A DNA stretch of 64,000 nucleotides from Croceivirga sp. (GTDB lineage: Bacteria > Bacteroidota > Bacteroidia > Flavobacteriales > Flavobacteriaceae): positions 1 through 64,000 of the forward strand of contig JANQKR010000004.1 in NCBI GenBank assembly GCA_028281025.1. The letters are read 5' to 3'. The position numbers and the translations under genes are program-made. How positions within the stretch are numbered: the first letter of the stretch is position 1; each line of letters begins with the position of its first letter. Below, piece by piece: positions 18,018-60,384 of this stretch. The notes below the pieces were generated by a model. That model searched no databases. It was given only the letters and a program-made list of their open reading frames with translations, and was not told the origin of the DNA.

Positions 18018-19031
18018 ATGAAAAACAACAGACCTATCGTTATTTGGTTACTATTGGGTTGTACCCTAATTTTTATTATGGTCATTGTAGGGGGTATTAC
18101 CAGGCTGACCCATTCCGGGCTTTCCATTTCAAATTACAAATTGATAAGCGGTACCATCCCGCCAATGAACGAACAGGAATGGATAGAAGCATTTGAACTG
18201 TATAAACAATATCCCGAGTATCAAAAACTCAACACCCACTTTGACTTGGAGGATTTTAAGGACATCTATTTCTGGGAATGGTTCCACCGCGTCATTGGCA
18301 GGTTCATAGGATTGGTCTTTATTGTCCCCTTCCTTTATTTTTTAATTCGAAGGAAATTGGATGCCCCAACAATCAAAAAATGCCTCATATTGTTGATATT
18401 GGGAGGATTCCAAGGTTTCCTGGGTTGGTATATGGTAAAAAGTGGTCTGGTGGACAGACCGGACGTTTCCCACTACAGATTGGCAGCGCACCTATCCACG
18501 GCATTTCTAACCTTTGCATATTGCCTTTGGGTGGCCTTGGACTTGATTTACCCAAAGAAGAAAGAAGTCCATAAACAAATCCGAAATATAATATGGGCTG
18601 GTATTGTGCTACTTATGATCCAGATTGTTTGGGGTGCCTTTGTGGCCGGTTTGGACGCTGGTTTTATCCATAACCATTGGCCCATGATGAATGAGGGAAA
18701 GCTAATTCATGAAACGGTCTATATAGAACAACAACCCGTGCTAAAAAACTTTATAGAAGGTCGCAGTGGAGTTCAGTTCGTACATCGCTATTTGGCCTAT
18801 GTCGTAGTTGGTATTATTATTTTTATTTGGTTGAAAACCAAGAATATGCAATTGACATTCCTACAGAACCGGGGAATCATGGCCTTAGTTGTTTTGGTAG
18901 GGGTCCAATTCCTTTTAGGTGTGCTTACATTGATTTGGGCAGTCCCCGTATGGTTGGGGGTAGTACATCAAGTGGGCGCTTTCCTTTTATTGGCAGCTAT
19001 GACCTTTACCCTTCATAGGTTCTCTAAATAA
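18018..19031 (+). CDS. ctaA: Heme A synthase (COX15/CtaA)
   Basis: The 337-residue polytopic inner-membrane protein oxidises the C8 methyl of heme O to give heme A for cytochrome oxidase. Eight hydrophobic segments are visible. The conserved GGITRLTHSGLSI follows TM1, and haem-ligand histidines occur in FWEWFHRVIGR, HYRLAAHLSTAF, FVHRYLAYV and VVHQVGAFLLL. The long loop with GAFVAGLDAGFIHNHWPMMN between TM4 and TM5 is typical of the alphaproteobacterial/Bacteroidota type. It appears monocistronic. Confidence 0.95.
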   Translation: MKNNRPIVIWLLLGCTLIFIMVIVGGITRLTHSGLSISNYKLISGTIPPMNEQEWIEAFELYKQYPEYQKLNTHFDLEDFKDIYFWEWFHRVIGRFIGLVFIVPFLYFLIRRKLDAPTIKKCLILLILGGFQGFLGWYMVKSGLVDRPDVSHYRLAAHLSTAFLTFAYCLWVALDLIYPKKKEVHKQIRNIIWAGIVLLMIQIVWGAFVAGLDAGFIHNHWPMMNEGKLIHETVYIEQQPVLKNFIEGRSGVQFVHRYLAYVVVGIIIFIWLKTKNMQLTFLQNRGIMALVVLVGVQFLLGVLTLIWAVPVWLGVVHQVGAFLLLAAMTFTLHRFSK

Positions 19032-19072
19032 CTTCTTTCTTGTACCTTTGTAGGCACCAAAAATTGTAATGG

Positions 19073-19567
19073 ATGATTTACAAAATCAGGATAATTCTTG
19101 ATGCTGAAGAGGATATTTTTAGGGATATTGAAATTGAGGAATCAAATACCCTGGAAGAATTCCATAATGCCATTACCCAGGCCTTTGGTTTCATGGGCAA
19201 TGAAATGGCCTCGTTCTACACTTGTGATGAAGAGTGGAACCAAGATGAGGAGATAGCCTTATTTGACATGAGCGAAAATGGTTCTGATGTGCGACTAATG
19301 AACGAAACTTCATTGGACGATGTACTTACCGAACAAAGTCCTAAAATGATCTATGTTTACGACTTTTTGAGTATGTGGACCTTTTTTGTGGAGCTTGCCG
19401 ACATTTCGGAAAAAGAAGACGGAAGGACCTACCCGAACCTCTTGTTCAGCTTTGGGGAACTCCCGGATTCGCCACCTGATAAAAGATTTGAATCGGAACC
19501 GACCTTGGATTTTGATAACGAAATAGGAAGTTATGACGATTTGGATTTTGATGAAAATTGGAACTAA
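19073..19567 (+). CDS. pRiA4b ORF-3-like acidic protein
   Basis: The 164-residue protein begins MIYKIRIILDAEEDIFRDIEIEESNTLEEFHNAI and contains FMGNEMASFYTCDEEWNQDEEI, the pattern of the plasmid pRiA4b ORF-3 family (cytoplasmic, function unknown, found in mobile and chromosomal contexts). It is very acidic, and its tail (DNEIGSYDDLDFDENWN) is almost all Asp/Glu/Asn. An out-of-frame ATG occurs 4 bases upstream; the given ATG is the one that yields the family N-terminus. It is followed after 29 bases by a heptamer repeat array and a nucleoid-associated protein gene on the same strand. Confidence 0.85.
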   Translation: MIYKIRIILDAEEDIFRDIEIEESNTLEEFHNAITQAFGFMGNEMASFYTCDEEWNQDEEIALFDMSENGSDVRLMNETSLDDVLTEQSPKMIYVYDFLSMWTFFVELADISEKEDGRTYPNLLFSFGELPDSPPDKRFESEPTLDFDNEIGSYDDLDFDENWN

Positions 19568-19596
19568 GGTCCGCCAATTATAAAAACCATCCCTAA

Positions 19597-19680
19597 CCTT
19601 TAACCTTTAACCTTTAACCTTTAACCTTTAACCTTTAACCTTTAACCTTTAACCTTTAACCTTTAACCTTTAACCTTTAA
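19597..19680. repeat. Tandem repeat, 12 perfect copies of a 7-bp unit (CCTTTAA)
   Basis: Twelve consecutive perfect copies of CCTTTAA fill 84 bases, preceded by a decayed copy (CCCTAA) at 19591-19596. The array ends 7 bases before the ATG of the nucleoid-associated protein gene, so it occupies that gene's promoter or leader. No spacers are present, so it is not a CRISPR. A gain or loss of one unit would shift spacing by 7 bp without touching a reading frame. Confidence 0.98.
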
Positions 19681-19687
19681 CAAATAA

Positions 19688-20746
19688 ATGCTGAACCTAT
19701 ACGCCGCCCAAATCGAAAATCTCTCCCTTCATCGCGTAGGGAACAAGAGCAGGAATGAATCCGTTTTTCTTTCGGAAAATCCCTATGCCCCAACCGATGA
19801 AATCTCAGCACTATTAAAGGAATACTTCTTTAAGCCTTTTCGGGAAAAGGAGGAAAACTATTTCAAATTCCAGCACGAGGTAGATATCGAATTCAACGAA
19901 CTTTATAAGGCGGTTTCCCAGATATTTAAAAGTCCTGCCCAGACCCATGAAATCTCAAAGCAAATTACCTCCCATCTCTTTGAGCAATCCAATCACCCCC
20001 ATATCAAAAATGGGGAAGTCTATGTGGCCTATTTTTCCGATATGGTACTGGACAACCAAAAGGTAAATGCCATTGGTATATTTAAAAGCGAGCTAAAGCA
20101 TGATTTTTTGGAATTCGAGGAACGTTCAAAAGATTTGGGGATATTGGTCCGTCAGGGAATCAACATTAACAAACTGGACAAGGGCTGCCTAATTTTTGAT
20201 GCGGAACAAGCGAACGGCTACAAGATACTTTCGGTGGATAGCAATCGTTATGACACCAAATACTGGCTGGAAAACTTTTTGGGGGTCGAACCGCTGACAG
20301 ACGAAAACTTTTACACCAAGAATTATTTGAAATTCTGTCAGGGTTTTGCAAAGGATGTGGTGCTACCGGCGGAGGACAAGCAACAGGAGGTCCTGTTTAT
20401 GAACAGGGCGGTTAACCACTTTGCCAAAAATGATGCTTTTGAAGAAACCAGCTTTCTCAATGAAGTCATGGAGAACCCGGAACTGATTCCGGAATTTAAG
20501 CACTACAAAGTAGAAAAGGGACCTAAATACAGTATTGAGGACGTCTCCAATTTTGATATTGCCAATAAGGCCGTATCGGACGCCAGAAAGAAAATAAAAA
20601 ACGTAATCAATCTGGACACCAACATCCAAATAAAAATGGATTTTATCAATCCGGAGTCTGCTGAAAAATTTGTTGAAAAAGGTTGGGACGAAGAACGCCA
20701 AATGTATTACTATTTGGTCTACTTTAACAAGGAGCAAAAGAGCTAG
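19688..20746 (+). CDS. 37-kDa nucleoid-associated protein (NdpA/YejK family)
   Basis: The 352-residue protein belongs to the NA37/YejK family, which binds double-stranded DNA and is linked to nucleoid organisation in Proteobacteria. Support comes from length, the N-terminal pattern LNLYAAQIENLSLHRVGNKSRNE, the central VYVAYFSDMVLDNQKVNAIGIFKSE and the C-terminal half rich in acidic and aromatic residues (IKMDFINPESAEKF). It lacks a signal peptide and is cytoplasmic. The gene is bracketed by two different heptamer repeat arrays and faces the kinase-like gene. The upstream array directly abuts the start, so its expression may depend on the array. Confidence 0.85.
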   Translation: MLNLYAAQIENLSLHRVGNKSRNESVFLSENPYAPTDEISALLKEYFFKPFREKEENYFKFQHEVDIEFNELYKAVSQIFKSPAQTHEISKQITSHLFEQSNHPHIKNGEVYVAYFSDMVLDNQKVNAIGIFKSELKHDFLEFEERSKDLGILVRQGININKLDKGCLIFDAEQANGYKILSVDSNRYDTKYWLENFLGVEPLTDENFYTKNYLKFCQGFAKDVVLPAEDKQQEVLFMNRAVNHFAKNDAFEETSFLNEVMENPELIPEFKHYKVEKGPKYSIEDVSNFDIANKAVSDARKKIKNVINLDTNIQIKMDFINPESAEKFVEKGWDEERQMYYYLVYFNKEQKS

Positions 20747-20782
20747 GTCTTTTGACGTCTAGACCCCCGCATACAACACCTT

Positions 20783-20850
20783 CTAACACCTAACACCTAA
20801 CACCTAACACCTAACACCTAACACCTAACACCTAACACCTAACACCTAAC
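20783..20850. repeat. Tandem repeat, 9 perfect copies plus a partial copy of a 7-bp unit (CTAACAC)
   Basis: Nine perfect CTAACAC units (20783-20845) are followed by CTAAC. Upstream there are decayed copies (CAACACCTTCTAACACC). The array fills the space between the convergent ends of the nucleoid-associated protein gene and the kinase-like gene. Its unit differs from the array at 19597 but shares the TAAC core and the same period of 7, and both arrays stop at the same sequence AACAAAT. Confidence 0.98.
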
Positions 20851-20853
20851 AAA

Positions 20854-21930
20854 TCAAAACTTCTTCTCAATGATCTGTTTCATACTTACATCCTCATAAT
20901 TGCGCTTCACAAAATCCAGGGCAATTGAAAGTATGTCCCCCATGGAAGTGCTTTTTTTGAACTTCATATCCAACGTTAGTTCATAAATCTCACTCTTCAA
21001 ACGGTCAATATTTTCGGGAAGTGAAATAGAATCGGCCTTGGCAATTTCGGCCAATCGCTTAATTCGGTCTCCCGAACTCAAAATCCTTTTCGCCACAATA
21101 GATCGTTCCTCGATCTTATACTGATCCACGGAGTACTTCTGAAGTAGGGTGCGCACAAGTTCCACCATTTGAAAGTTCTCTTTAAAAAACTGTGGACGAT
21201 AGATTTTTAGTTTTCCTTCAAAACATTGTTGGTCAAAATCAATGGCCCGTATCTTGTAAATCACATGGTCAAAATCATGTACGGGCACAATAACGTAATT
21301 ATAGGAACGCATATCCCCTAAAAGCCGAATCATACAACGTTCATTGAACTTCACAAATTCCTTTGCCAATTGGGACTTTTCGGATTTTGAAAGCGTTGGC
21401 AAAAACTCCTTAATGAAAACATCACCTGGTATACCCGCAATATGCTCTTCAATTAGTGTGTCCTCATGCACCAAAAAGTTAAGATGGTGGGGGGAAAGCA
21501 TATGCTCCAGTTCCAGTCCGTAAACACGACTGGCATCCGTCTTTTTCACGTAAAAGTAGGTATAGTTGTCATTAAGGATGTTCCTTACTTTTATCCGGAA
21601 TGGCTTTGAATTCCCGAAGGTGCAAAAATCCACGGCATCTACGTTAAGATATTCCAGAATCCTATCGCTTCCATCGGAGTGGAGAATGGAATACACTTTT
21701 TTAAGGCTCATATCTATCTCCTCCCGATCAAAGTCGGAATAATACACCCTGACCCACAGGGTGTCTTCACCATCGGCATCTTCAACCGCTATGGAGCCGG
21801 AAAAGCGCAACAGATCATCATAAAAAATAGGGATTTCTATCTTTCGACTGTATTTTTCCAAATATTGATCCAAATCGGGACTTACCGGATAGGCCGGTTT
21901 TTTTTTGGACATTAACCTTTCTTGGGACAT
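20854..21930 (-). CDS. Uncharacterised protein with divergent protein-kinase/APH-like landmarks
   Basis: I do not recognise a named family. Numbered from the ATG at 21930 (358 aa), the product shows a series that fits a kinase-like fold: YTYFYVKK with Lys129/130 as a candidate beta-3 lysine; ELEHML with Glu140/142 as a candidate alpha-C glutamate; LIEEHIAGIPGD (about 160-170), which reads like the hinge of aminoglycoside phosphotransferases; GDMRSYN, with Asp206 and Asn211 five apart as in the HGDxxxxN catalytic loop; and RAIDFD, with Asp231 in the place of the DFG/IDxD metal aspartate. A beta-rich N-terminal region precedes this. The catalytic histidine before GD is replaced by Leu. It could be an active atypical kinase or a pseudokinase. 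An ATG at 21912 or an extension to 21963 are alternative starts. Confidence 0.6.
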   Translation of the reverse strand: MSQERLMSKKKPAYPVSPDLDQYLEKYSRKIEIPIFYDDLLRFSGSIAVEDADGEDTLWVRVYYSDFDREEIDMSLKKVYSILHSDGSDRILEYLNVDAVDFCTFGNSKPFRIKVRNILNDNYTYFYVKKTDASRVYGLELEHMLSPHHLNFLVHEDTLIEEHIAGIPGDVFIKEFLPTLSKSEKSQLAKEFVKFNERCMIRLLGDMRSYNYVIVPVHDFDHVIYKIRAIDFDQQCFEGKLKIYRPQFFKENFQMVELVRTLLQKYSVDQYKIEERSIVAKRILSSGDRIKRLAEIAKADSISLPENIDRLKSEIYELTLDMKFKKSTSMGDILSIALDFVKRNYEDVSMKQIIEKKF

Positions 21931-22114
21931 AGGGCTTTTTTTTTCAGATTTCCAAAGATACAAAATGCCTGTAATCCTTTTATTACATGGTATTTATATG
22001 GAATCGCCAACCACATAACACCTCATCTTTACCACGCCTTTTTTCGGGTTGGCAACAATTATCTGTGTAAGCCAAATAAAGGTGTTTTTTTCGTAGTAAG
22101 GATTACTATTTCCG

Positions 22115-25100
22115 ATGATTATGTATACAGACTTGCTACCAAAAGTTTCCTATATCAAACATGTTTTTTGCATACTTTTAGTTGTCTTGATCGGTCAATT
22201 TGCACAAGCCCAACTTAGTGATCTGCATTATTTGCCACCATTGAAACAAGGGCAGAATAATCAAGGGATTCGGGATCAAGCCATATATCTTTCAACCCCT
22301 GAACCCACAATGTTTACCGTAAATGCCTATCGGGGGACCAATCCAACACCAGTAGCAACGTTCAATATCTCCAATGTCAATCCAGCTGTTTGGACCTTAA
22401 GTGATGGAGATAACAATATTATTCTCGTAAACAATACCAACACAGGGGTTGTTTTAACCAACAGTGGGCTACGTTTTGAATCACCAAGTGGAAATCGTTT
22501 TTATGTAAACTACAGGGGTAATTCAAGTGCACAGGCCGCTTCATTGACTGCTAAGGGAAGACAGGCCTTAGGTACCCATTTTAAATGGGGTGGGGTGCCC
22601 AACTTAGGGGCCCATTCCTCCAAATCCAACACTTTGGGTATCATGGCCACTGAGGACAATACAACCATTACGCTTTTCGGCTATCATCCGGACTGTACCT
22701 TTAGAATAGGTAATAACGCAGACGCTATTACAGATAATACGTACACAATTATTTTAGATGCCAATGAGTCTTTTGTGTTCGAAAACTATGTGGGCACAAG
22801 AAACCTTCCGTCCCACATAGATGGTTGGATTGGTGCTTCCGTAGAATCCGACAAGGATATCGTTATCAGCAACGGTTCCATAAACTTTGGTAGGCAAGCA
22901 GGTGCCAGTAACCGTGACGCCGGTATTGACCAACCCGTACCTGAGAACCGACTTGGAAAGGAATATGTATTTGTACGTGGTAATGGCGGCACCAATGGGG
23001 CTACTGAATTTCCATTGCTCATTGCCACCGAGGATAACACCCAAATTTTTGTCAACGGTAATCCAGCACCTATCGCCACCTTGAACAATGGGGATTATTT
23101 TGAAGTTCCCAGCAGCTATTTTTCTTCGAATACGGTTGGCGCCAATATGTTTGTACAAACCACGAAAAATGTATATGCCTACCAATGTATGGCAGGTGCA
23201 AGTCAGGTGTATACCCAGGGACTCAATTTTGTGGCTCCGGTAAACTGTCTATTACCGGATGTAATGGACAACATTCCAGACATTAGGGATATGGCAGGTC
23301 TCGATGTTACCGGGGGAATGACCATTATTGCTGCCGTCAATACACCCGATGCCAATATCACGATAACCGATGGCAATGGAGCGGTTGCCCTACCAGCTTC
23401 AAACCCGGTTGCAGGTTCTGCGGACTGGAAGACCTTTTATATTCCCAACCTAAATGGCAATGTAAGTGTACAGTCCACAGGTCCCATGGCCGTTGGATTT
23501 TTTGGATTTAACGGAGCAAGGGGTGTTGCAGGTTATTTTTCCGGATTTGATACCGTACCTGAAGTAATTTTGGAAATTCGTGGTGGTACGGGCTGCTTTG
23601 TTGGCTCGGAGATTTTTGAGGCCACGGAAAGTTTTGATGCCTATCAATGGTTCCGGGACGGACAGTTGATTCCCGGTGCCAACGCGGCAAATTATGCACC
23701 AACCATTGCTGGTGATTACTATGTACGGGGCACCAAAGGGCCATGTACCTACGATAGTAACACCATTCAAGCCCTTTACTGTGATCCCGATATTATCCTG
23801 GACAAAACCGTGGACAACAATGAAATTATGGAAGGGGAAACGGCCACATTCACCATTCGAGTGCGAAACTTAGGCGCTGGACCTGTGACCAACTTGCAAA
23901 TCACCGATAATATTCCCACAGGACTTACCTTGATCAATGCCTTTACCATTTCAGGAACCTGGAGTGGCAATACTTGGAACATTGGTACTTTGGACGGTGG
24001 GGATGTCGCGGAATTGGAACTTGAAGTACGTGGGGATGAAATCAATATTCTACCGCTACTAAGCCTTACCAATACGGTGACCAATACCCAAGACCAGACA
24101 GATACCAATACCACTCCAGATAATCCAACCGCTTTAATAACGGTCCATAACGATTCGGATGATGATGGTATTCGCGATATCACGGACCTCGACGATGACA
24201 ACGATGGCATTTATGATGAGGACGAGTGCGATACCTTGGCCTTTACCATTGCCAACGGAGCATCCCATAATAGTGCCCTGGTCAGTGTTGACAACTATTT
24301 GGTCATGGATGTCTTTAGTATCGATAATTCATTCAACCTTGACGTTAACGGCAATGATGTGGCCGGCGAATTACAATTTCAATTAGGGGAACCGGGAAAT
24401 TTTGCCCGTTTTAATGATGGCACGACCTACGGCGAAGCTGGAAATCCGGACATATGGACGATAACTGGTACCAATGGCACCCCCATACTTAGGGTTGTCA
24501 TTGACCAAGCGGGCCAATTTGAATTGTTTGGGACAAGGTCAACAAATGGTCCATTGGAACCTATGGTTCTGGATACCCCTCCCGCTCCAATTAGCTGGAA
24601 CTCCTTGGGGAACAACACCATTACCATTGGCCAGGATGTTGTTGGTCCTACCAATATGAGAGGGGTATTGCTAACAGCTGGTTGTGATACCGATTCCGAT
24701 GGCATCCCGGACCACTTGGATCTGGATAGTGATGGGGATGGCTGTAGTGATGCCAATGAATTTTATAAGGACAATAATGCAGATGGTGGTGATGGCGGAG
24801 AATACGGGACTGGAACACCGGTAGTGGATTCAACAGATGGAACAGTAAATGACGCCTCTTACATTCAGGTTTTTGCCCCGGAAATTATACTGGGAAATAC
24901 CTCGGAAGATTTAGGAGGGACCAATATTAATGGACAGGGTGTAAGTTTGGGTCAAGCTTTTCAATATGTGCTTCGATTTCAAAACACCGGTGATGACAAT
25001 GCCGTCAACTATTCCATAAGAAACATTCTCCCCAATAATGTAAACCTTGACAATGTCAATGTGGTGAATGCTCCTGGCGTTACCCATACCCATGACATCA

Positions 25101-28100
25101 ACACCAATGAAATCTCCTTTCAGGTACCGGACAATTTGGTGGAAGTCGGCGACCCGGAGTACACCATTAGAATATTCGTAACGCTTTCCGGTAACTGTTC
25201 CGACTTTGTGGATGCTTGTTCCGACACATTGGAGAATAGGGCATATTCCACGTATCAAGGCGTGCTGAACCCTTCTACCTTCACCGATGAAAACGGTGCC
25301 GGTTCCGTCTCCGCCTGTAGCGTTACACCAGAGGTTGCCACAAACACCATCCTGGACGATTTGGCCAATTGTAGTATCGCCAGAACGGTGCAATTGTGCG
25401 GCGCTGATGTACTACTTACCGCTGGTTCCGGGTTCGCGAACTATACATGGGCCTTGGATACCAATGGTAACGGACAAATTGATGGCTCGGAAACGCCGAT
25501 TGACGATGGTGACCCAGATGGCGATCCAAGTACACTTTTGGTAACCGATATTGGTAATTACATTGTTCGGAAATCCGGGGCCACAGGCTGTTCGGATGCT
25601 ACGGAGCTCATCACCGTTGAGCGTTTTGGCACAACACAGACAAATCCCATTATAGGGTTCTTCAATCAAGTCAACTCGGACAGTAATCCCGATAATGATC
25701 TGCAGGGCGAAATCGTGACCTGTTCCATTGATGGGGATTTGTTGCCCAAAATCTTCTTATGCGGAGCAACTGATGAAGCAACCATTCAATTGGGCATAAC
25801 GGATGCCGACAGCATTGTCTGGCAACGATTGGATGAAACCAGTTGTGCGGATACTGGAGATGATTGTGCCAACAAAAATGGAACCTGTGCGTGGACAGAC
25901 CTGGCTACCCAAAACAATTTTACGGTTACCGATAGTGGTGAGTACAGGGTCGTAATCAACTATCAAAATGGATGTTTCAGCCGTTTTTTCTTCAATGTGT
26001 TCAAGAACACACTGGATATCGATCATAATGCCTCGGATATTCTTTGTAGTACGCCCGGTAACATAAGGGTAACCAATATTGGTTCCGGTTATGGGTTCCA
26101 ATTGGTGGATGCCGTTAATGACAATATCATCGTTCCCTTCTCCGATGATAACGGGCCTAATTTTGATATCACCACAAGTGGCACTTATAAGGTACAGGTT
26201 ACACCACTAAATCCGGTGACAGGAGACCCAATTGCAGGCAGTTGTATTTTTGAAACTGCAGATATCGGCATCCTGGAAAGGGACTATCAGGTAAACATTA
26301 CAACCACTGCCGCAGAGTGCAATGCCTTGGGCGCTATCGGGATACAGGCACTGAACGTACTTCCCAACTATTCGTATGAACTTCGTCTGGACGATGGCAG
26401 CAATGGTGGTCTGGGGACTTTTGTTGATAGCCAGGTGGCATCAAATGACAATACATACACCTTTAATGATGTCAACCCTGGAGACTACATTGTAATCACT
26501 ACCACGGATGATGGATGTTCAGATACGCAAAATGTAACGGTTGGGGAAGTTCCAGAACTGACATTGGACGCTGTGACCACCTCGGATATTACCTGTAACG
26601 CGGGTGTGATTACCTTAACTCCAAACGGTGGAAGTCCCAATCCTGATTATGGGATGGCCATCTGGGCAAAAGATGGCGTACCATTATATGCCACCCCTGC
26701 TGATGTTCCCAATTCCGCCAAACAAAGTACAACCAACTTTTTGTTTGGTTACCGGGGTACACCGGAAACGTATTTTCCAAATGAAGACGGTGACTATCAA
26801 TTCATAGTTTTTGATGGGAATAACTGCAGCGCATTTTCCAACGTAGTAACCATACAAGATCTGGGAACGGTTTCCATTTCAGCTTCCCATTCCGCCATTG
26901 TTTGCGCCGATTCGGCCACTTCGACCTTAACGGTAACCGCAACAGGGGGGACCGCCCCTTATCAATACAGTTTGGATGGCGGTACCACGTATCAAATGGC
27001 CAATACGTTTGTTAATCTGCCCGCTGGTTTCTACACCATTACAGTAATGGATTCCAGTGGCACACCTACATCCAGATGTATTGAAACCTTGGATTACGAA
27101 ATTGACCAACCCTTTAGACTAACGGCTTCTGCAGCTATCGTGGAAGATGCATCCTGCAACTCAAGCGGGGCATTGGTCAAGATCCTGAATGCCAGTGGTG
27201 GGCAGGCCCCCTATGAATATAGTTTTGATGGCGGAAGCAGTTTTGGAACGCTAAATGAAAGAAACCTGTTATCTGGAAACTACCAATTGGTGGTAAGGGA
27301 TGCCCTAGGCTGTACGTTTCCCATGCACTTGACCGTTCCAACCGTTGCTCCAGATCCAAATTTATCTTATGCCATAGACTATGATTGCAATGGCCTGGGA
27401 ACCATTACCGTTTCATCATCGAACACTACCGATTTTGACTATACGTACACCGTGCCTCCAACCTGGACGGTCAACAACAATATATTTAGTGATGTGCCGG
27501 ACGGTACCCATACCATAACCGTAGGATATTCCAGCACTATAGCTCCAAATCAGACTACTCTGTTCTTCGAAAATTTTGGAGCCGGTCCAACTACCCAGAT
27601 AGCAGAAATTGGTTCCGATTATTGTTTTGAGCCCCAAGACGGTTCACTTACCAATTGTAATAGGGGTCCCGCCGGAATTCTGGTGAACGGGGAGTACACG
27701 GTCACAAATTTTGTCACCAATCCTGTTTCTTTTTGGACAAGTCCACAAGATCATACTGGGTTGACCGACGGTAGATTTTTATCAATAGATGTAAGTACCT
27801 TCTCGGATACCGGCAATCCGCAATTGAATAATATTTTATGGGCAAAACGGGATATTGAAGTATTGCCCAATGAAGAAATCACCCTAAATTTCTGGGCTTA
27901 TAACCTTATGAACCTTTCCGGGGTTGGGAACAACCCAGAAGTACTGGTTGAAATCCTGGACAATACGGGAACGGTTATTTACACCGAAGTAGCCCCGGAA
28001 ATTCCGAAAAACACGGGCAATACCGATTGGCACGAACGTACCATAACCTTCGATCCAGGAGCCAATACCGATATTGACATTGTCTTTAGGACCAATGTGA

Positions 28101-31100
28101 ACAGCAATGATGGTAATGATTTGATTTTGGATGACATTACCGCTTTCCAAATACCTGAGGTTTGTGAAAAAACACAGGATTTGACCGTAGTTGTTGAAGC
28201 GGACCAAGCTTTTGAAGCGCAATTGTTATCCACCATTGACCCAAGTTGTAATGGGATCGCTGATGGGTTTGTTCGGTTCGAAGTTTCCAATTTCACCCCG
28301 GGTATTGGTTTTGAATACTCTTTTGATGGTACTGCGTGGACAACATCCATGACCTCACCGGTAACCACAGCTGCCAACCTGGCCGATGGATCGTATACCC
28401 TTCAAATAAGAAAGTTGGATGATAGTTCATGTGCTGTTTCGTTCCCGGTTACGCTTACGCAACCCTCGGTAATTGTTCCTTCCTTGGCGCAAATAGCAGA
28501 CTATACTTGTTTCAATACCGGCGGCACCTTGGAAGCTTCCGCTACTGGTGGCAACCCATCTTATGAATATCAATTGGAAACCTCAGGGGGAGCGATAGTG
28601 ACCGCATATCAAACCAACGCCCGGTTCACCAATGTTCCAAATGGGGATTATGTGGTACGTGTGATGGATCAAAACGGTTGTGAAGTGGTATCCACAACTC
28701 CAGTGACCATTGTTCCTCCAGCAAATATTGCCTTTGATGTAACCCCAACGGCTTGTTATTCCGGAAGTAATGATGGGACTATTGTGGTCAATGTCACCTC
28801 AGGCAATGGCAACTATGAATTTAGAATTGATGGCGGTCCCTGGATTGCACCTTCTCCTGTGGGAGCTACCAGTTACACCTTTACAGGACTTTCCTCGGGA
28901 AATTATGATATTGAGGTAAGGGACCAATTCGGATGTCCCGATACACCAAACATACAGAATGTTGACATCAACCCTCAGCTTATTGTAGCTATTGAAGTAA
29001 CCCAACTAAGTGCCTGTAATGATGGTTTGATTACTGTAAACGCTACTGGAGGGAACGGAACATTGCTTTTTGCCATTGTACCCGCCAACACAAGTCCGGC
29101 AGGATTGTACAGCACAACAAATTCGCTGACCGTTACCGATGCAATGGCCACCGCCAACCCAGCGGGCTACGATGTCTATGTACAAGATAACAATGGGGGT
29201 CCGGCACTATGTTCTTTTCTGCAGGAAGATATTATACTAACACCTGTCGCTACCTTATCAGCAAACGCTGTTCCTACCGATCCCCTATGTTTTGATGGCC
29301 TTGGCGCCGTTGATGTTACCGTTGGGGGAGGAACTGCACCTTATACCTATGCCCTGGTTGATTTATCTCCCGCGGATGGTATTGATTATGGTAGGAGCAA
29401 CTCAAATATTTCAACCACCACGCTTGCTTTCAACGGTATTGGTGTGGGGGATTATGAAGTGACCGTTACCGATGTGAATGGTTGTACGGTTACATCTTCA
29501 ACAGTAACCATTAACAACGCTACGGAAATTACGGCAGATATAACACCCATATTGCCGGCTACGTGTACAAGTACGATTGAAAGCGAATTTGGTTTCGAAT
29601 TCATAAACATAACCACTCCTTCGGGAACACCGGGAACTGTTGAATACAGTAATGATGGTGGAACAACATGGCAGACATCCACTGAGTTAAGGGGTTCTGT
29701 ATCGAACCCAACCTTCTCCGGAACGGAGGTATTTCCATCCATAAGGGTTGAAGTTTCACCCGGAGTTTATTGTCAAAAGGATTTTGACAGGTATATCATT
29801 CCATTTCCATTGGATGATTTGGACATCACCATATTTCCCCAGGTATTGGACTGTAATGACTTACAGGTAACCGTACAAGGTAGCCGGGGGGATGATTCCA
29901 TTGGTTACAGATATACCTATACGGATGATCCAGCCAATTTTGGTGCATCTACACCGGTTTGGACCGCGAGAATTCCCACGGGCACCCCCTATACTTGGGC
30001 AAACATTGATCCGACAACACCCGCATTGCCCGGTTTGCCCCTACTGGTGCCGGGAAGGACATACGTTTTCTATGTTCAAGATGGTTCAAACTGTATCCGT
30101 CAGAGTAATGTAAATGTAAATGAAGTACCCTCTGTCAATCTGCCAATTGAAATTGCTACGGATGTCACACCGACTTGTTCAGGAGGAACCACGGGGGAGC
30201 TAACCTTTACCTTAACCCCCGATACCGCTTTTCCAAACATGCGTTGGGAAATCTATGAACTCGGCAATACCACTCCAATTGAAGTAAGTGGTGGTGGCGC
30301 AACAGCGGTTAATGTTGGCTATAATAATACGATTACCTCTTCGGTTCCACTTTCCGAAGGGGAATACTATTTGGAAATCATTCAAGTGGATGGTACCAAC
30401 ACCGACGCCTGTAGAGCGGCAAGTGAAAATGCTTATGTCCCGGAATTGGCCCCATTAAACGCTACCGCCGTAAAGACCAGGGACATTTCATGCAATCTGC
30501 CAGGCTTAATAGCAATCAATGGTATTTCGGGTGGTGGTGGCGCCCCTTATACCTATGATGTGTCCGGCCCTGGAGGTTTAACAATAAATGGAACTACCAA
30601 TAACCCCGTTGAGATTCCCGTAAACTCCCCTGCCGGCAATTATACGGTGACTTTGTACGATCAGTATAGTTGTCCCTTGGTATTGAATACGGTATCATTG
30701 AATTTAACAGCAAATCCTACCATAACATCGGTGACACAGGATAATTGTACTTCTCCAATAGCTGTTACCGTTGTAGGGATACCGGTTGCCGGAAACCTTC
30801 GTTATGCCATGGTTTCAAATGGAGCACCCGTTCCTACGACCTTCGAAGATAACGGAGGGGTCTTCAGCAATGTTTCTCCAGGCACTTATGACATTTATAT
30901 CACCGATGACAATGGTTGTATTGACTTACAAATTGGGTTTGTGGTAGAACCCGTTTTATCGGCAAGTGCAACGCTCACGAAATTATTGGATTGTACCGCC
31001 TCAGCAGAGGCGACCATTGCCATAGAAATACTTGATGGTTCTGGAAATTACGAATACAGTATCACCAATACTGCTGGAGCTCCTGCCGTAACACAAACCG

Positions 31101-34100
31101 TGGTTCCTGCTCATAGTTTTGATTACCAAGCACCTCTGGCGGGTGATTATACCATTACCATTTATGATACCAATACCCCAAGCAATCCAATTTGCGATAG
31201 GGTGTTTGTAATCAATGTACCTGATCGCGTGGAACCCGCACTCAATCCGGCCATAGTAACCGATGTCTCTTGTTTGGGGGCCAGCGACGGCAGCATTATC
31301 ATTTCGACCACAAATGGGGCAGCGGCACCCTATACTTTCGAAATCACCGCTATGGATGGGGTGGTAACAAGCATTGCTCCCACAAGTACCACGGGCAATT
31401 CCGCAACTTTTACGGGATTGGCCCCCACCACTACCGCCGCTGGATACGTCATTACCGTTACCGGTGATTCCGCTACAAACAACTGTAGCGTAAACAGCCC
31501 CTCAATTACCATTTCGGAACCGACAGCAATTACGGTACCCGCTCCTACGGTTGTCGAATTTGGATGTACTTCGGGCAATACCACGAATAATGCTTCAATT
31601 ACCGTTAACGATGTGGCGCCATTTGTCCAAGGAGGCAGTGGCACCTACATTAGATATGAATTTATTGAAGAGGACGATCCGAATACCCTTGCGGTGGAAA
31701 CCCCAAGTACGGTTCAGTCCGGAACAAGTGCAACGTATATCGAAACCGACCCCGCTGGAGGTGTTTATACCATAAATGTTTACGATGATAACGGTTGTTT
31801 TGGGACCACTACGGCAACCATTGCCCCATTTGATGTTTTGGGGACACCTACCATTACGGTTGATGAGGACATTAGCTGTAGCAACTCAGGAGAGGATATC
31901 ACTATTGATATTGTAGGAAGTTTGACCAGCTATGCTACACATCCCGGAAATTATCAGTTTAGAATGCTACCCTCGAGTACGTACCAAGCATCCAACCAGT
32001 TTCTGGATTTAAGCGCTGGTTCACACACTTTTGGTATCCTGAATGTAAATACAGGATGTGAACAGATCATTACACATTTGGTGGAAGAACCGAATACTTT
32101 TGATATCATCGTTGAAAAACTGGCCGACGTAGTATGTTTTGGAGATGATGGCAGTATTCGATTGACCATGGTGGATGCCACATATTCAAATGGATTCACT
32201 TGGAATATCTATAATACCAATGGCACCCCAACCGATCGTACGGATGATGGCCCTGTGTTTTTAACAGGTTCTTCGGCCAATCTTGGTCCCACGGTTGCCA
32301 TTGGCGTGCCGGCCGGTGATTATTTGGTGGAAGTTGTTCAGGATGCCTTTCCGGAATGTAGTCAGGTGCGATCCTTCAACATTGCCACCCCTCCAGCTTC
32401 AATCTCCCTGGACCCAATAGCCTTAACTGATGTAGGCTGCACCAATGATCAGGGTACCGCCCTGATTGCCCCAAGAGGGGGTCAAGCACCTTATACCATT
32501 GCGCTTACCCATGTAGGGAGTGGAACAACGACTACGGTAACTTCGGTGAACAGCCATTTGTTCCAGTCATTAACTGCCGGTGATTATGAAATCAGTGTTA
32601 CCGATGCGTTGACCTGTAATGAGGTATTTACTGGGACTGACGCCTTTAGTTTGGTACTCCCCGATCCCATAACCGGTACTGCCACCGCAAATAGTACATT
32701 AGTTTGTGAAGGCGATACGGATGCTTCCATATCGTTCAGTTTAAACCCAAGAAACGTGATAACCAACTATCGGTATGTATTGAATACCTATAATGACAAT
32801 TCGGGAAGCGTATTGCTGAGTTCCTCGGTTTCACAGACCACACCAACCTTTAACAATTTGGGGGCAGGTTTCTATAGTATCTCGGTAACTGATGATATGG
32901 GCTGTACGTTTGAGACTGCCCCAGTTCTTGAAATTCAGGAACCCACCGGTGTGGAAGCATTATTGGTCACCAACCGGGCCATAAGCTGTCAAACCAATGC
33001 AGAGCTCCTTTTGGTAGCCTCTGGAGGTACCGCTCCATATGAATGGAGTTTGGACGGCAGTGCGTTTAATCCAATGAATGAAATGGTAACATCGGACACC
33101 CATTTGTTCCAAAATGTTCCAGCTTCCCCAGACAGTTATCGCTATTATATTAGGGACAGTTTTAACTGTATATCCATAGTGTCCAATGCAGTTGGCGTGG
33201 AGGCCATTGAAACCCTTACGGTCACTTTGGATACTTCTGCAGCCCGCGTAAACTGTACTGGAGATAGCACGGCCCTAATTGACGCAGTTGCGGATGGTGG
33301 AGTGGGCAATTATCTATTTGCATTGTTTAGAGATCAAGCGACCACCGATGAGATAAGGCCCAATCAAACGGATGGCACCTTTGCTGACCTACCCATTGGC
33401 ACCTACTATGTAAGGGTTCAAAGTGGGGATTGCGAGGTAGTTTCCGAACAAGTACTGATTGGTGAACCAACACCTTTGGTAGTCAATCCCACCATTACGG
33501 AGATTAGTTGTGCAGATGCCAATGATGGAAGTATAACACTGGACGTTCAGGGCGGTAGTGGTAATTATCAATTTGCCATTTCCCCCAATCTTAACCAGTT
33601 TGATGATGAAAACAGTTTTGAGGAGCTTTCCCCCGGCGATTACATCGTAATTGTACAGGATGGTAATGGTTGTTTTGAGGTAGTAGAGTTTAGTTTGATA
33701 GCCCCCTCTTCCCTGGCCGTTACTTCAACAGTAACTGATGAAATCTGTTTTGAAAGTGCGGACGGTACGGTAACTCTTGAAATAAATGGCGGTACCGCAC
33801 CATATTTTACCAGCTTGAACAGTAATGCGGACACCGATTTCAACCAGGATGTTTTCCAATATACGGACCTACCAAGTGGAACGCATGTTGTATTCATTAG
33901 GGATGCCAATGGCTGTGAAGTGACAGAGGTGTTCGAGGTAAGCCCCGGTGTAAATCTTGCTGGCGAGGCAATTGTGGAATATCCGTGTGATTCCGGGATA
34001 ACTTCAAACCGGGTTGGTCTTTCATTTGAAGATCCATCCATTATGGGTAATTTGTTGTATGGATTGGATACGGCAGACCCCGCCCAAATGGTCTTGGAGG

Positions 34101-34675
34101 GAACTTTTGAAGGAATTCCCGGTGGGGATCATTACATTACGGTAATGCACAGTAATGGGTGCACCAATACCTTTGATTTCAGTATTACGGAATTTGACCC
34201 ATTGGGATTACAACTGACAGAAAGCGATATCAATACCATTACCGCATTGGCCACGGGTGGATCGGGCAACTATACCTTTACCATTAATGATGAAACCCCA
34301 ACTGATAATGCCGAGTTCTATATTACGGAAACAGCTACCTATACCATTACGGTTACCGATGAAAACGGCTGTAGTGTAACTGAAGAAATATTCATGGAAT
34401 TCATTGATATTGAAATCCCCAATTTCTTTACTCCTGATGGAGATGGACATAACGATACCTGGGCACCAAGAAACATGGGACAGTACCAGAACATCTTTAT
34501 CAAAATCTACGACCGATATGGAAGAACCTTATATCAGTTCAGGGGAAATGAAGACGATTGGGATGGCCAATACCAATTAAGTGATTTACCCACGGGGGAT
34601 TACTGGTATATCATCAAATTGAACGGAATTGAAGATCAAAGGGAGTTTATTGGAAACTTCACCCTTTATCGCTAA
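22115..34675 (+). CDS. Giant SprB-like surface adhesin with T9SS type B sorting domain
   Basis: The product is 4186 residues long. A signal peptide ends near FAQAQ (about residue 33); an ATG 6 bases downstream is an alternative start. Domains in order: an IgGFc-binding-like N-terminal module (about 34-490), an Ig-like segment (about 490-560), a DUF11 module (about 560-680), thrombospondin-type-3 Ca-binding Asp repeats (DSDDDGIRD, then DTDSDGIPDHLDLDSDGDG), and a second DUF11-like module. About 25-30 SprB-type repeats of 80-110 residues then run to about 4090, each with a GG.APY.YS core and an ending near G.Y.I.V.D..GC. The C-terminal gliding-motility type sorting domain starts at FFTPDGDGHNDTW and ends in EFIGNFTLYR. 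The family role is cell-surface adhesion or gliding. No PorP/SprF-like partner gene is adjacent. A strong terminator follows. Confidence 0.92.
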   Translation: MIMYTDLLPKVSYIKHVFCILLVVLIGQFAQAQLSDLHYLPPLKQGQNNQGIRDQAIYLSTPEPTMFTVNAYRGTNPTPVATFNISNVNPAVWTLSDGDNNIILVNNTNTGVVLTNSGLRFESPSGNRFYVNYRGNSSAQAASLTAKGRQALGTHFKWGGVPNLGAHSSKSNTLGIMATEDNTTITLFGYHPDCTFRIGNNADAITDNTYTIILDANESFVFENYVGTRNLPSHIDGWIGASVESDKDIVISNGSINFGRQAGASNRDAGIDQPVPENRLGKEYVFVRGNGGTNGATEFPLLIATEDNTQIFVNGNPAPIATLNNGDYFEVPSSYFSSNTVGANMFVQTTKNVYAYQCMAGASQVYTQGLNFVAPVNCLLPDVMDNIPDIRDMAGLDVTGGMTIIAAVNTPDANITITDGNGAVALPASNPVAGSADWKTFYIPNLNGNVSVQSTGPMAVGFFGFNGARGVAGYFSGFDTVPEVILEIRGGTGCFVGSEIFEATESFDAYQWFRDGQLIPGANAANYAPTIAGDYYVRGTKGPCTYDSNTIQALYCDPDIILDKTVDNNEIMEGETATFTIRVRNLGAGPVTNLQITDNIPTGLTLINAFTISGTWSGNTWNIGTLDGGDVAELELEVRGDEINILPLLSLTNTVTNTQDQTDTNTTPDNPTALITVHNDSDDDGIRDITDLDDDNDGIYDEDECDTLAFTIANGASHNSALVSVDNYLVMDVFSIDNSFNLDVNGNDVAGELQFQLGEPGNFARFNDGTTYGEAGNPDIWTITGTNGTPILRVVIDQAGQFELFGTRSTNGPLEPMVLDTPPAPISWNSLGNNTITIGQDVVGPTNMRGVLLTAGCDTDSDGIPDHLDLDSDGDGCSDANEFYKDNNADGGDGGEYGTGTPVVDSTDGTVNDASYIQVFAPEIILGNTSEDLGGTNINGQGVSLGQAFQYVLRFQNTGDDNAVNYSIRNILPNNVNLDNVNVVNAPGVTHTHDINTNEISFQVPDNLVEVGDPEYTIRIFVTLSGNCSDFVDACSDTLENRAYSTYQGVLNPSTFTDENGAGSVSACSVTPEVATNTILDDLANCSIARTVQLCGADVLLTAGSGFANYTWALDTNGNGQIDGSETPIDDGDPDGDPSTLLVTDIGNYIVRKSGATGCSDATELITVERFGTTQTNPIIGFFNQVNSDSNPDNDLQGEIVTCSIDGDLLPKIFLCGATDEATIQLGITDADSIVWQRLDETSCADTGDDCANKNGTCAWTDLATQNNFTVTDSGEYRVVINYQNGCFSRFFFNVFKNTLDIDHNASDILCSTPGNIRVTNIGSGYGFQLVDAVNDNIIVPFSDDNGPNFDITTSGTYKVQVTPLNPVTGDPIAGSCIFETADIGILERDYQVNITTTAAECNALGAIGIQALNVLPNYSYELRLDDGSNGGLGTFVDSQVASNDNTYTFNDVNPGDYIVITTTDDGCSDTQNVTVGEVPELTLDAVTTSDITCNAGVITLTPNGGSPNPDYGMAIWAKDGVPLYATPADVPNSAKQSTTNFLFGYRGTPETYFPNEDGDYQFIVFDGNNCSAFSNVVTIQDLGTVSISASHSAIVCADSATSTLTVTATGGTAPYQYSLDGGTTYQMANTFVNLPAGFYTITVMDSSGTPTSRCIETLDYEIDQPFRLTASAAIVEDASCNSSGALVKILNASGGQAPYEYSFDGGSSFGTLNERNLLSGNYQLVVRDALGCTFPMHLTVPTVAPDPNLSYAIDYDCNGLGTITVSSSNTTDFDYTYTVPPTWTVNNNIFSDVPDGTHTITVGYSSTIAPNQTTLFFENFGAGPTTQIAEIGSDYCFEPQDGSLTNCNRGPAGILVNGEYTVTNFVTNPVSFWTSPQDHTGLTDGRFLSIDVSTFSDTGNPQLNNILWAKRDIEVLPNEEITLNFWAYNLMNLSGVGNNPEVLVEILDNTGTVIYTEVAPEIPKNTGNTDWHERTITFDPGANTDIDIVFRTNVNSNDGNDLILDDITAFQIPEVCEKTQDLTVVVEADQAFEAQLLSTIDPSCNGIADGFVRFEVSNFTPGIGFEYSFDGTAWTTSMTSPVTTAANLADGSYTLQIRKLDDSSCAVSFPVTLTQPSVIVPSLAQIADYTCFNTGGTLEASATGGNPSYEYQLETSGGAIVTAYQTNARFTNVPNGDYVVRVMDQNGCEVVSTTPVTIVPPANIAFDVTPTACYSGSNDGTIVVNVTSGNGNYEFRIDGGPWIAPSPVGATSYTFTGLSSGNYDIEVRDQFGCPDTPNIQNVDINPQLIVAIEVTQLSACNDGLITVNATGGNGTLLFAIVPANTSPAGLYSTTNSLTVTDAMATANPAGYDVYVQDNNGGPALCSFLQEDIILTPVATLSANAVPTDPLCFDGLGAVDVTVGGGTAPYTYALVDLSPADGIDYGRSNSNISTTTLAFNGIGVGDYEVTVTDVNGCTVTSSTVTINNATEITADITPILPATCTSTIESEFGFEFINITTPSGTPGTVEYSNDGGTTWQTSTELRGSVSNPTFSGTEVFPSIRVEVSPGVYCQKDFDRYIIPFPLDDLDITIFPQVLDCNDLQVTVQGSRGDDSIGYRYTYTDDPANFGASTPVWTARIPTGTPYTWANIDPTTPALPGLPLLVPGRTYVFYVQDGSNCIRQSNVNVNEVPSVNLPIEIATDVTPTCSGGTTGELTFTLTPDTAFPNMRWEIYELGNTTPIEVSGGGATAVNVGYNNTITSSVPLSEGEYYLEIIQVDGTNTDACRAASENAYVPELAPLNATAVKTRDISCNLPGLIAINGISGGGGAPYTYDVSGPGGLTINGTTNNPVEIPVNSPAGNYTVTLYDQYSCPLVLNTVSLNLTANPTITSVTQDNCTSPIAVTVVGIPVAGNLRYAMVSNGAPVPTTFEDNGGVFSNVSPGTYDIYITDDNGCIDLQIGFVVEPVLSASATLTKLLDCTASAEATIAIEILDGSGNYEYSITNTAGAPAVTQTVVPAHSFDYQAPLAGDYTITIYDTNTPSNPICDRVFVINVPDRVEPALNPAIVTDVSCLGASDGSIIISTTNGAAAPYTFEITAMDGVVTSIAPTSTTGNSATFTGLAPTTTAAGYVITVTGDSATNNCSVNSPSITISEPTAITVPAPTVVEFGCTSGNTTNNASITVNDVAPFVQGGSGTYIRYEFIEEDDPNTLAVETPSTVQSGTSATYIETDPAGGVYTINVYDDNGCFGTTTATIAPFDVLGTPTITVDEDISCSNSGEDITIDIVGSLTSYATHPGNYQFRMLPSSTYQASNQFLDLSAGSHTFGILNVNTGCEQIITHLVEEPNTFDIIVEKLADVVCFGDDGSIRLTMVDATYSNGFTWNIYNTNGTPTDRTDDGPVFLTGSSANLGPTVAIGVPAGDYLVEVVQDAFPECSQVRSFNIATPPASISLDPIALTDVGCTNDQGTALIAPRGGQAPYTIALTHVGSGTTTTVTSVNSHLFQSLTAGDYEISVTDALTCNEVFTGTDAFSLVLPDPITGTATANSTLVCEGDTDASISFSLNPRNVITNYRYVLNTYNDNSGSVLLSSSVSQTTPTFNNLGAGFYSISVTDDMGCTFETAPVLEIQEPTGVEALLVTNRAISCQTNAELLLVASGGTAPYEWSLDGSAFNPMNEMVTSDTHLFQNVPASPDSYRYYIRDSFNCISIVSNAVGVEAIETLTVTLDTSAARVNCTGDSTALIDAVADGGVGNYLFALFRDQATTDEIRPNQTDGTFADLPIGTYYVRVQSGDCEVVSEQVLIGEPTPLVVNPTITEISCADANDGSITLDVQGGSGNYQFAISPNLNQFDDENSFEELSPGDYIVIVQDGNGCFEVVEFSLIAPSSLAVTSTVTDEICFESADGTVTLEINGGTAPYFTSLNSNADTDFNQDVFQYTDLPSGTHVVFIRDANGCEVTEVFEVSPGVNLAGEAIVEYPCDSGITSNRVGLSFEDPSIMGNLLYGLDTADPAQMVLEGTFEGIPGGDHYITVMHSNGCTNTFDFSITEFDPLGLQLTESDINTITALATGGSGNYTFTINDETPTDNAEFYITETATYTITVTDENGCSVTEEIFMEFIDIEIPNFFTPDGDGHNDTWAPRNMGQYQNIFIKIYDRYGRTLYQFRGNEDDWDGQYQLSDLPTGDYWYIIKLNGIEDQREFIGNFTLYR

Positions 34676-53119: not shown

Positions 53120-53206
53120 AGCAATTAAGGATTAATTGCGTGCAAATATACCACAAATTCGCGGTTCAAAGGAAAGACCTGGAATTATGGTAATTTTAAG
53201 TCAATT

Positions 53207-53229
53207 TTATTTATAATAATTCTAAATAA
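53207..53229. promoter_or_regulatory. Near-perfect 23-bp palindrome, candidate iron-repressor operator
   Basis: The arms are TTATTTATAAT (53207-53217) and ATTCTAAATAA (53219-53229), matching in 10 of 11 positions around the central A at 53218. It sits just upstream of a -7 element (TATTTTTG, 53233-53240) where RNA polymerase would contact the -33 region, so a bound repressor would block the gene at 53256. The same motif class recurs at 60395 and 60456 in front of a metal-uptake operon. Its identity as an iron box is inference. Confidence 0.6.
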
Positions 53230-53232
53230 TCT

Positions 53233-53240
53233 TATTTTTG
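53233..53240 (+). promoter_or_regulatory. -7 element of small gene at 53256
   Basis: TATTTTTG matches TAnnTTTG and ends 15 bases before the ATG at 53256. It overlaps the TTG at 53238, which argues against that TTG as the gene's start codon. The -33 region is occupied by the palindrome. Confidence 0.55.
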
Positions 53241-53255
53241 AATAAAATAATAGCC

Positions 53256-59166: not shown

Positions 59167-60384
59167 TTAGTCTACTTCCGCAACGGTAAAAGTAAACTTG
59201 GCAGCGATGGCTTCGGCAACAGTGTCCAGATTATCCGCAGTCACATTCCAAAAACCATTGGTTGGCGTATTGTAAATGGTATCCAAATATTCCAAAACCT
59301 CATCCCTTGAGAAATAGAACTCGGCAGCAGTACCGGGCATTCTTAAAAACTGTAAACTGTAAATAAACCCATATGCTTCAGATAAATCGTGGAAGGTAGT
59401 ACCTGGCTGAGTGCCCCCTAAACCAGCTTTACCTGCTTTGAGATAGTGAACAGCCCTTACCGCAACCAGCATGGCAATTTTTTCCCTTAGGATGTCGGCT
59501 TGAGCATCCCGCTCATCGTAATCCTTATTTAGAATAGCCGTTCTACCTGCTTTGTAGGCATCAAAAATATCTTGGGCAATACCTGGGAAATTCGCCTCAA
59601 CATTGTCCAGGTATTTTGCTAAAAATTCATCCGGATTATCATCAACGGCATCTATGTCGGCTATTGGATTTTCACTATTATCCACTACACCAAAGAAATA
59701 ACCATACGCCTCGTCCCAGTCATGCTCCATATCCGTGTAGTTCTGACCATCTACAATGACCTCATTATCATTGTCGTCCTCAAATTGGGCCAATTGGTTG
59801 GGATTGGTGTAATTATTAACGATTTGATCTGCCACAAATGCGCCGGTCAAACCTTTGATAAAGGCTTGATCCAGTTCCAGTCCCCTTCCGTTTACGTAGC
59901 GTGTTGAAGAGCCATCGGGCAATTGGCCCGCATTACCTTCGGTAGCAACTTGGTTCCAAAAAGGAAATACATCCTCAACCTGCTCGGTAATGTATCCATC
60001 AAAATCGGCTTTAATGGTAACTGAAGTCATGGATGGTGCCACTTGGCTGAAATAATAAGAACCGGCAGTTTTATTTCGAATCTGCTTATCTGAAGCATTC
60101 AAATCAGCTTCACTGAAATTCTCCGTACCCTGCTGGTGAGCAAAGGCCGCATCTATTTCTGCCTCCGTGGACGTATTGTCCCTTAATTTTGAAAGGATTT
60201 CGCTGGCCATCAACAAACGAGTGGTTTGCCCGCTAAAGCTAACTGTGGATTCCCCGTTACGCTCAAAAACGTAGGTGGCAGGCACCGTAAAGTCCGGATC
60301 GATCGCGATGTCACCATTATCTTCATCATCCGAACAGGACCAAATTAGGGTCACTAGCAACAGGGGCAAAAAAAACTTCTTCAT
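59167..60384 (-). CDS. DUF4856 lipoprotein
   Basis: The 405-residue protein begins MKKFFLPLLLVTLIWSCSDDED, a lipoprotein signal with Cys17. The mature part has the DUF4856 opening YVFERNGESTVSFSGQTTRLLMASEIL and a helical body with FWNQVATEGNAGQLPDGSSTRYVNGRGLELDQAFIKGLTGAFVADQIVNNY. DUF4856 regularly accompanies imelysin genes in Bacteroidota and is probably a related helical metal-handling protein. It is the first gene of the minus-strand operon, directly after the promoter and palindromes. Confidence 0.9.
   Translation of the reverse strand: MKKFFLPLLLVTLIWSCSDDEDNGDIAIDPDFTVPATYVFERNGESTVSFSGQTTRLLMASEILSKLRDNTSTEAEIDAAFAHQQGTENFSEADLNASDKQIRNKTAGSYYFSQVAPSMTSVTIKADFDGYITEQVEDVFPFWNQVATEGNAGQLPDGSSTRYVNGRGLELDQAFIKGLTGAFVADQIVNNYTNPNQLAQFEDDNDNEVIVDGQNYTDMEHDWDEAYGYFFGVVDNSENPIADIDAVDDNPDEFLAKYLDNVEANFPGIAQDIFDAYKAGRTAILNKDYDERDAQADILREKIAMLVAVRAVHYLKAGKAGLGGTQPGTTFHDLSEAYGFIYSLQFLRMPGTAAEFYFSRDEVLEYLDTIYNTPTNGFWNVTADNLDTVAEAIAAKFTFTVAEVD

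Follow-up and report, generated by a model that had tools for sequence, protein, structure and literature searches.

Two heptamer arrays beside an NA37-family gene in Croceivirga sp. probably belong to a dispersed family of TAAC repeats anchored at gene edges

The two tandem heptamer arrays that flank an NA37-family gene in Croceivirga sp. are probably members of a dispersed family of intergenic TAACHHH microsatellites, which would be maintained by slippage and is anchored at the edges of genes. Both arrays lie in the window, which is the whole stretch of 64,000 nucleotides that was analysed, in the following arrangement.

19073..19567, + strand: upstream gene with a PRiA4_ORF3 domain (PF07929), 164 aa
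19594..19681, + strand: array 1, TAACCTT x12.6 (12 perfect units and TAAC)
19688..20746, + strand: NA37-family (37-kD nucleoid-associated) gene (PF04245), 352 aa
20783..20851, + strand: array 2, CTAACAC (TAACACC) x9.9
20854..21963, - strand: convergent 369-aa ORF from the ORF list, its stop adjoining array 2

Array 1 begins 26 bp past the stop codon of the upstream gene and ends 6 bp short of the NA37 ATG; it can also be read as 12 perfect CCTTTAA units, then CAAATAA, then the ATG at 19688. Array 2 begins 37 bp past the NA37 stop and lies 3 bp beyond the stop of the opposing 369-aa ORF, and it does fill a convergent junction as the earlier note had proposed. The positions given there for both arrays were confirmed, together with their identical exit sequence, TAACAAAT. 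The statement that such arrays are absent from the rest of the 64 kb was borne out as well: arrays 1 and 2 are the only exact period-7 runs of at least three copies, the next-longest period-7 run being AAACTGT x2.4 at 59347. The two arrays are far beyond chance. TRF (score of at least 30) returned 21 rows for the window, and the sole non-array row above a score of 40 is a two-copy 26-bp tandem repeat at 53191-53245. Decayed copies had been noted upstream of each array. Partly decayed units are indeed found on the 5′ side of both, but this does not extend to a rule, since among 58 arrays the 5′ flank was closer to the unit in 30 and the 3′ flank in 23, with five ties (p = 0.28).

Genes were called by a simple ATG-to-stop script. 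The NA37 gene matches PF04245 at 191.9 bits (cut-off 24.6), while the convergent 369-aa ORF has no match in Pfam or NCBIfam. An Rfam search of window positions 19000-22300 gave no match, and 195 of 200 shuffles folded better than the NA37 leader RNA. Directly in front of the NA37 ATG, the bases TAACAAATAA are unchanged in the window's genome (G000) and in two sister species carrying the same loci (G002, assembled as one contig, and G004). Beyond the convergent ORF, positions 22115-34675 (+ strand) hold an ORF of 4186 aa with a C-terminal match to TIGR04131, the T9SS type B sorting domain, predicting a giant secreted or surface protein.

The flanking DNA of the three sister species is mostly 92-97% identical. 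The number of copies before NA37 is 12, 7 and 5 in G000, G002 and G004, respectively, and the number after NA37 is 9, 23 and 10. The window arrays are therefore variable-number repeats between species, and the variability of copy number raised in the earlier note is supported at this level. The units of the NA37 arrays are identical across the three species, except for one variant in G004. In G000 and G002 these arrays are perfect over 51 units (357 bp), in which about 13 differences would be expected without turnover at a flank divergence of about 3.7%, an estimate taken from coding DNA. At most of the compared loci the unit is kept between sister species but the copy number is not. At the SDR and FtsX loci, which were searched by TAAC, the final three unit bases vary from one species to another and TAAC is kept. 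Some array lengths are under-assembled, because contigs end inside arrays in G000 and G004. The end of contig C1 and the start of C40 in G000, and the end of C17 and the start of C59 in G004, each match as a pair one locus of G002, and the members of each pair are probably neighbours split by an array.

The NA37 gene is present in all 11 genomes of the genus, whereas arrays accompany it only in G000, G002 and G004; the remaining eight members lack them with the gene order kept. In every one of 81 leaders, taken from the window and 80 relatives, NA37 is preceded by the identical upstream gene; a minority of these leaders have arrays. Since this neighbour is constant with or without arrays, the earlier suggestion that they mark an inserted cassette is rejected. 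The idea that the arrays are binding sites for the NA37 protein itself is not supported, given that the gene occurs in 11 of 11 genomes regardless of arrays and that arrays also lie beside polA, uvrD, M3 peptidase and MazG genes. For the same reasons, namely eight of 11 genus members without arrays and other arrays adjoining unrelated genes, any NA37-specific function was discarded.

The position itself is nevertheless used repeatedly. In other genera, arrays built from CCTAACT, CCCTTAA, TAACTCT and similar units stop about 6 bp short of the NA37 ATG. A quickly built NA37 gene tree (90 rows, 86 different), with an array in 14 rows, requires at least eight array gains or losses given its supported branches. 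The period-7 z exceeded 4 in 20 of 78 NA37 leaders, five of 30 spacers after NA37, three of 70 spacers lying some 1.2 kb farther along and none of 195 other spacers, although the relatives are not independent and these counts are thus not probabilities. Limiting the spacers to 40-230 bp gave 17/69, 5/26, 3/16 and 0/115 in the same order. For periods 5, 6, 8 or 9, a z above 4 occurred in three of 373 spacers in all. Array-free NA37 leaders gave a lag-7 z of 12.5, a value not relied on, since one of the leaders (L110) contains Ns and the relatives were counted as if independent. Leaders of two other array-bearing genes, sampled as one genome per genus across the family and thus not matched to the NA37 sample, gave no period-7 z above 4 outside this genome: 0 of 28 scored for polA (one of 29 had no spacer) and 0 of 15 scored for ECH (14 of 29 spacers were too short, and one of the 15 is a 1,500-bp stretch without a called ORF). 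The remaining spacers gave 0 of 47 in the polA loci and one of 29 in the ECH loci. In relatives, the spacer about 1.2-1.4 kb beyond NA37 holds heptamer arrays of the units GACTTCC, GACATCT, TCCGACA and CTCCTAA, located at four loci.

L066:6196-6270, heptamer array in the spacer beyond NA37
L073:6288-6329, heptamer array in the spacer beyond NA37
L060:6396-6418, heptamer array in the spacer beyond NA37
L056:6396-6437, heptamer array in the spacer beyond NA37

The pairing of arrays at NA37 is not simply chance, as relatives repeatedly have heptamer sites in both of the NA37 spacers, and the gene itself appears to be a bystander at a place where arrays come and go.

Could the copy number of the leader array tune the expression of NA37, by analogy with the heptamers of hmw1A and hmw2A in Haemophilus? 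Array 1 stops 6 bp before the ATG, its copies differ between species, arrays recur in the NA37 leader among relatives, and heptamer copy number modulates hmw expression according to PMC2651432. On the other side, the bases next to the ATG are constant whatever the copy number, no RNA structure is predicted, the array is missing from most genus members, NA37 is not a surface gene, and arrays are found at stop codons as often as at starts. We regard such regulation as unlikely.

The distribution of arrays outside the window points instead to a dispersed family. The pattern TAACNNN x4 has 140 overlapping matches in this genome, against one for the reversed pattern. Arrays of at least three TAAC units occupy at least 15 places beyond the window, a minimum count as about 100 of the 140 matches were listed; two of the 15 lie at the ends of contigs C1 and C40 and probably represent a single array place. 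The genes beside these arrays are unrelated to each other and include those for a carboxyltransferase, an ABC ATPase, an M3 peptidase, PurE, an SDR, a HerA-like protein, FtsX and MazG, as well as MATE, a SerA-like dehydrogenase, penicillin amidase, polA, uvrD, enoyl-CoA hydratase, SusD and an M19 peptidase. A reading of the two window arrays as specific to NA37 is weakened by such a number of unrelated arrays genome-wide, an observation that the earlier note had named among those that would refute its interpretation. A census of periods 4 to 21, with a threshold of at least 14 consecutive self-matches, covered 1.279 Mb (the window, contig C37, most of C6, which was chosen partly for its arrays, and parts of C26 and C32). 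It found 16 period-7 runs and at most three runs of any other period, and three Markov shuffles gave no run at this threshold. The period-7 units contain TAAC on one strand in 10 of the 16 runs and lack it in six. Units with three or four Gs in a row, TAACCCC and TAACCCT, exist elsewhere in the genome. Spacers of this genome gave a lag-7 z of 2.1 (n = 553), with 3.0 for the co-directional ones; those of relatives gave -1.9 (n = 298), with 7.7 in the convergent subset (n = 28), where the NA37 3′ spacer accounts for many of the entries.

Counting this genome in both cases, five-unit TAACHHH arrays occur in 23 of 60 relatives and in 22 of the 148 genomes of a Bacteroidota sample. In the latter, this genome has the most matches (116), followed by one with seven. 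Matches to the reversed pattern occur in 14 of these 148 genomes, which shows that arrays built on different heptamers are common across the phylum as well. None of 34 arrays from 17 Bacteroidota genera lies within a called ORF.

The arrays have a fixed orientation relative to genes. For each array we took the nearest called gene on each side and asked which array end lies closer. Arrays 1 and 2 are both nearer a gene at the 3′ end of the TAAC strand (6 against 26 bp, and 3 against 37 bp). This end is the nearer one, whether to a start codon or to the stop of an opposing gene, in 18 of 21 arrays of the clade at 19 loci (p = 0.0015), and within 15 bp of a gene nine arrays follow the polarity and one goes against it. 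A second set comprised 34 listed arrays from 17 Bacteroidota genera, namely the places outside this genome from the 148-genome sample and seven from four relatives; two of the 34 arrays, at contig ends, were dropped, and two more loci that had been retrieved (L370 and L371) were left unscored. Among these listed arrays the polarity holds in 28 of the 32 scored (p = 1.9e-5), and in 26 of 29 without the three arrays of the window's genus (p = 1.5e-5). Within 15 bp the counts are 23 against 4, and of the 23, 18 are at the stop of an opposing gene and five at a start. In spacers between two stop codons, where there is no leader, the polarity holds in 11 of 13 arrays of both sets (p = 0.022). Both sets were picked by the TAAC core. 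For arrays with a CAAT core scored alike, it is 8 of 14, and 4 against 4 within 15 bp; from 25 such arrays, two inside ORFs, five without a called gene on one side and four that were TAAC-like had been dropped. Fisher tests of TAAC against CAAT gave 0.047 and 0.009 on these small numbers. TAAC itself seems to matter for the polarity, because the CAAT arrays, equally G-free on one strand, are unpolarised.

What, then, favours TAAC at gene edges? In the 30 bases before starts TAAC occurs 173 times and GTTA 105 times, compared with 88 and 80 after stops; given the near-equality after stops, seeding explains at most the start side of the polarity. Stop codons in six frames were considered as the reason for TAAC but not adopted, as some arrays contain no stops and TAAC would supply them in either orientation. 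The stop codon of the abutting gene is often in or beside the array. TAG is the stop in 18 of 34 array-abutting rows, with orthologues of one locus counted, against 23% in the genome. A MazG-family gene runs into the array at L156:3542-3601 and L197:3369-3435 and takes its stop codon from it, and the last codons of this gene differ between sister species.

One candidate cause is a protein that marks gene boundaries, not necessarily NA37, and that would recognise TAAC arrays as DNA or as RNA. TAAC is common to the loci and is kept at the two loci where the rest of the unit varies between species, the polarity is seen for TAAC but not CAAT arrays, and arrays with different TAAC units reappear at this position before NA37. 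However, the conservation of TAAC is partly built in because most arrays were found by this core, six of the 16 period-7 runs of the census lack it, no such protein is known, and NA37 occurs without arrays. Binding sites are an improbable explanation. Less plausible still are terminators of the Rho type, in which the G-free RNA of the TAAC strand would let Rho stop transcripts that enter a gene in antisense. The polarity means that transcription producing TAAC-strand RNA runs on into a gene, and many arrays adjoin the stop of an opposing gene; yet CAAT arrays are equally G-free and unpolarised. Rho prefers YC dinucleotides, and several units (TAACTTT, TAACAAC) contain none. Quadruplexes are an unlikely cause of the polarity in the window because the window units lack a G-triplet; on the G-rich strand (AAGGTTA, GGTGTTA) they have at most two consecutive Gs.

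A further regularity is seen where two arrays face each other in inverted orientation. All 12 such pairs, at about nine independent loci, have the order (GTTANNN)n-centre-(TAACNNN)n; arrays 1 and 2 do not form an inverted pair. At three loci of the three-species clade the divergent arrays share a 19-bp centre, AAAGTTTYCTACTTTCCAT, which is an imperfect palindrome with two copies in G000, three in G002 and three in G004.

L151:3468-3599, divergent pair around AAAGTTTYCTACTTTCCAT
L198:3415-3483, divergent pair around AAAGTTTYCTACTTTCCAT
L195:3413-3495, divergent pair around AAAGTTTYCTACTTTCCAT
L197:3369-3493, divergent pair around AAAGTTTYCTACTTTCCAT
L209:3492-3609, divergent pair around AAAGTTTYCTACTTTCCAT

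The shared centre suggests that some arrays, at least, were copied from one place to another. The arrays might even be the wings of a small mobile palindromic element that spreads between spacers, for which the recurrence of the centre at three loci (2/3/3 copies) speaks. But the centre is missing from the window arrays and most others, and its two-mismatch matches elsewhere in the genus (three) are no more than those of the reversed pattern (five), which leaves a mobile element very improbable.

We therefore return to the dispersed microsatellite family as the preferred account. Copies would be gained, lost and homogenised in 7-bp steps through replication slippage or unequal exchange, and arrays would persist where neither neighbouring gene is harmed. 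Array 1 would then be an unstructured, G-free piece of the 5′ leader and, with TAACAAATAA constant before the ATG in three species, probably has little effect on NA37. Neutral slippage alone, however, predicts neither the polarity nor the recurrence at the NA37 leader (20/78 against 0/195; at least eight changes). The arrays could conceivably be built in a polar manner, with the GTTA strand extended 5′ to 3′ away from the coding edge in 7-nt steps by templated end extension or repair synthesis, telomerase-like in geometry. We consider this quite unlikely. If true, the TAAC 3′ end would face the gene, inverted pairs would have only the GTTA-centre-TAAC order, and the same process, acting on other units, would operate in Xanthomonas and Nostoc.

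Intergenic heptamer arrays are of a known but poorly understood kind. PMC2651432, citing Dawid et al. 1999, describes heptamer repeats in the hmw1A and hmw2A promoters of Haemophilus influenzae that affect expression. Like array 1, these are 7-bp variable-number repeats upstream of a gene, but they lie about 100 bp upstream, inside adhesin promoters, whereas array 1 abuts the start codon of a nucleoid-type gene. The TAACTGA direct repeats of Beggiatoaceae, Cyanobacteria and some Bacteroidetes, reported in 2015 (PMC4679880), share the TAAC core with the heptamers here. In BOGUAY most of them immediately precede a start codon, in forward orientation, F. litoralis has one reverse set past a stop codon, and a Microcystis sample has six forward, eight reverse to a start and eight between stops; this mixed orientation does not fit the polarity found here. 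The window units TAACCTT and TAACACC differ from TAACTGA; the units here are G-free and vary by locus, and many arrays here are at stop codons.

The closest likeness is to the G-rich, quadruplex-forming heptamers of Xanthomonas and Nostoc (GGGAATC and GGGGA(T/C)T, 2-26 copies), also described in 2015. According to PMC4692102, the nearer ORF is on the 5′ side of the G-rich strand whatever the ORF direction, and convergent pairs number 70 and 75 in two Xanthomonas genomes and are few in Nostoc. Both kinds are intergenic, have conserved and variable unit positions and keep the same gene context with other lengths in sister species. Their geometry is the same, with the gene nearer the 5′ side of the G-rich strand (18/21 and 28/32 here), and as in Xanthomonas the G-rich strands of paired arrays converge, in 12 of 12 inverted pairs of the TAAC family. 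They differ in phylum, in unit and in the far smaller number of loci per genome here, and the window units, with no G-tract of three or more, would form no canonical quadruplex. Among the top results from the open-licence literature, neither TAACHHH arrays nor such a polarity is described for Bacteroidota. Heptamer arrays break short-read assemblies and could serve as typing markers. What is added here is a TAAC family with species-variable copy number, a polarity without G-triplets and a control core, CAAT, that lacks it. A fixed polarity in Bacteroidota, Xanthomonas and Nostoc is not predicted by plain slippage and suggests that some polar process or constraint acting at gene boundaries has gone unrecognised, and the unpolarised CAAT core narrows the question enough for testing.
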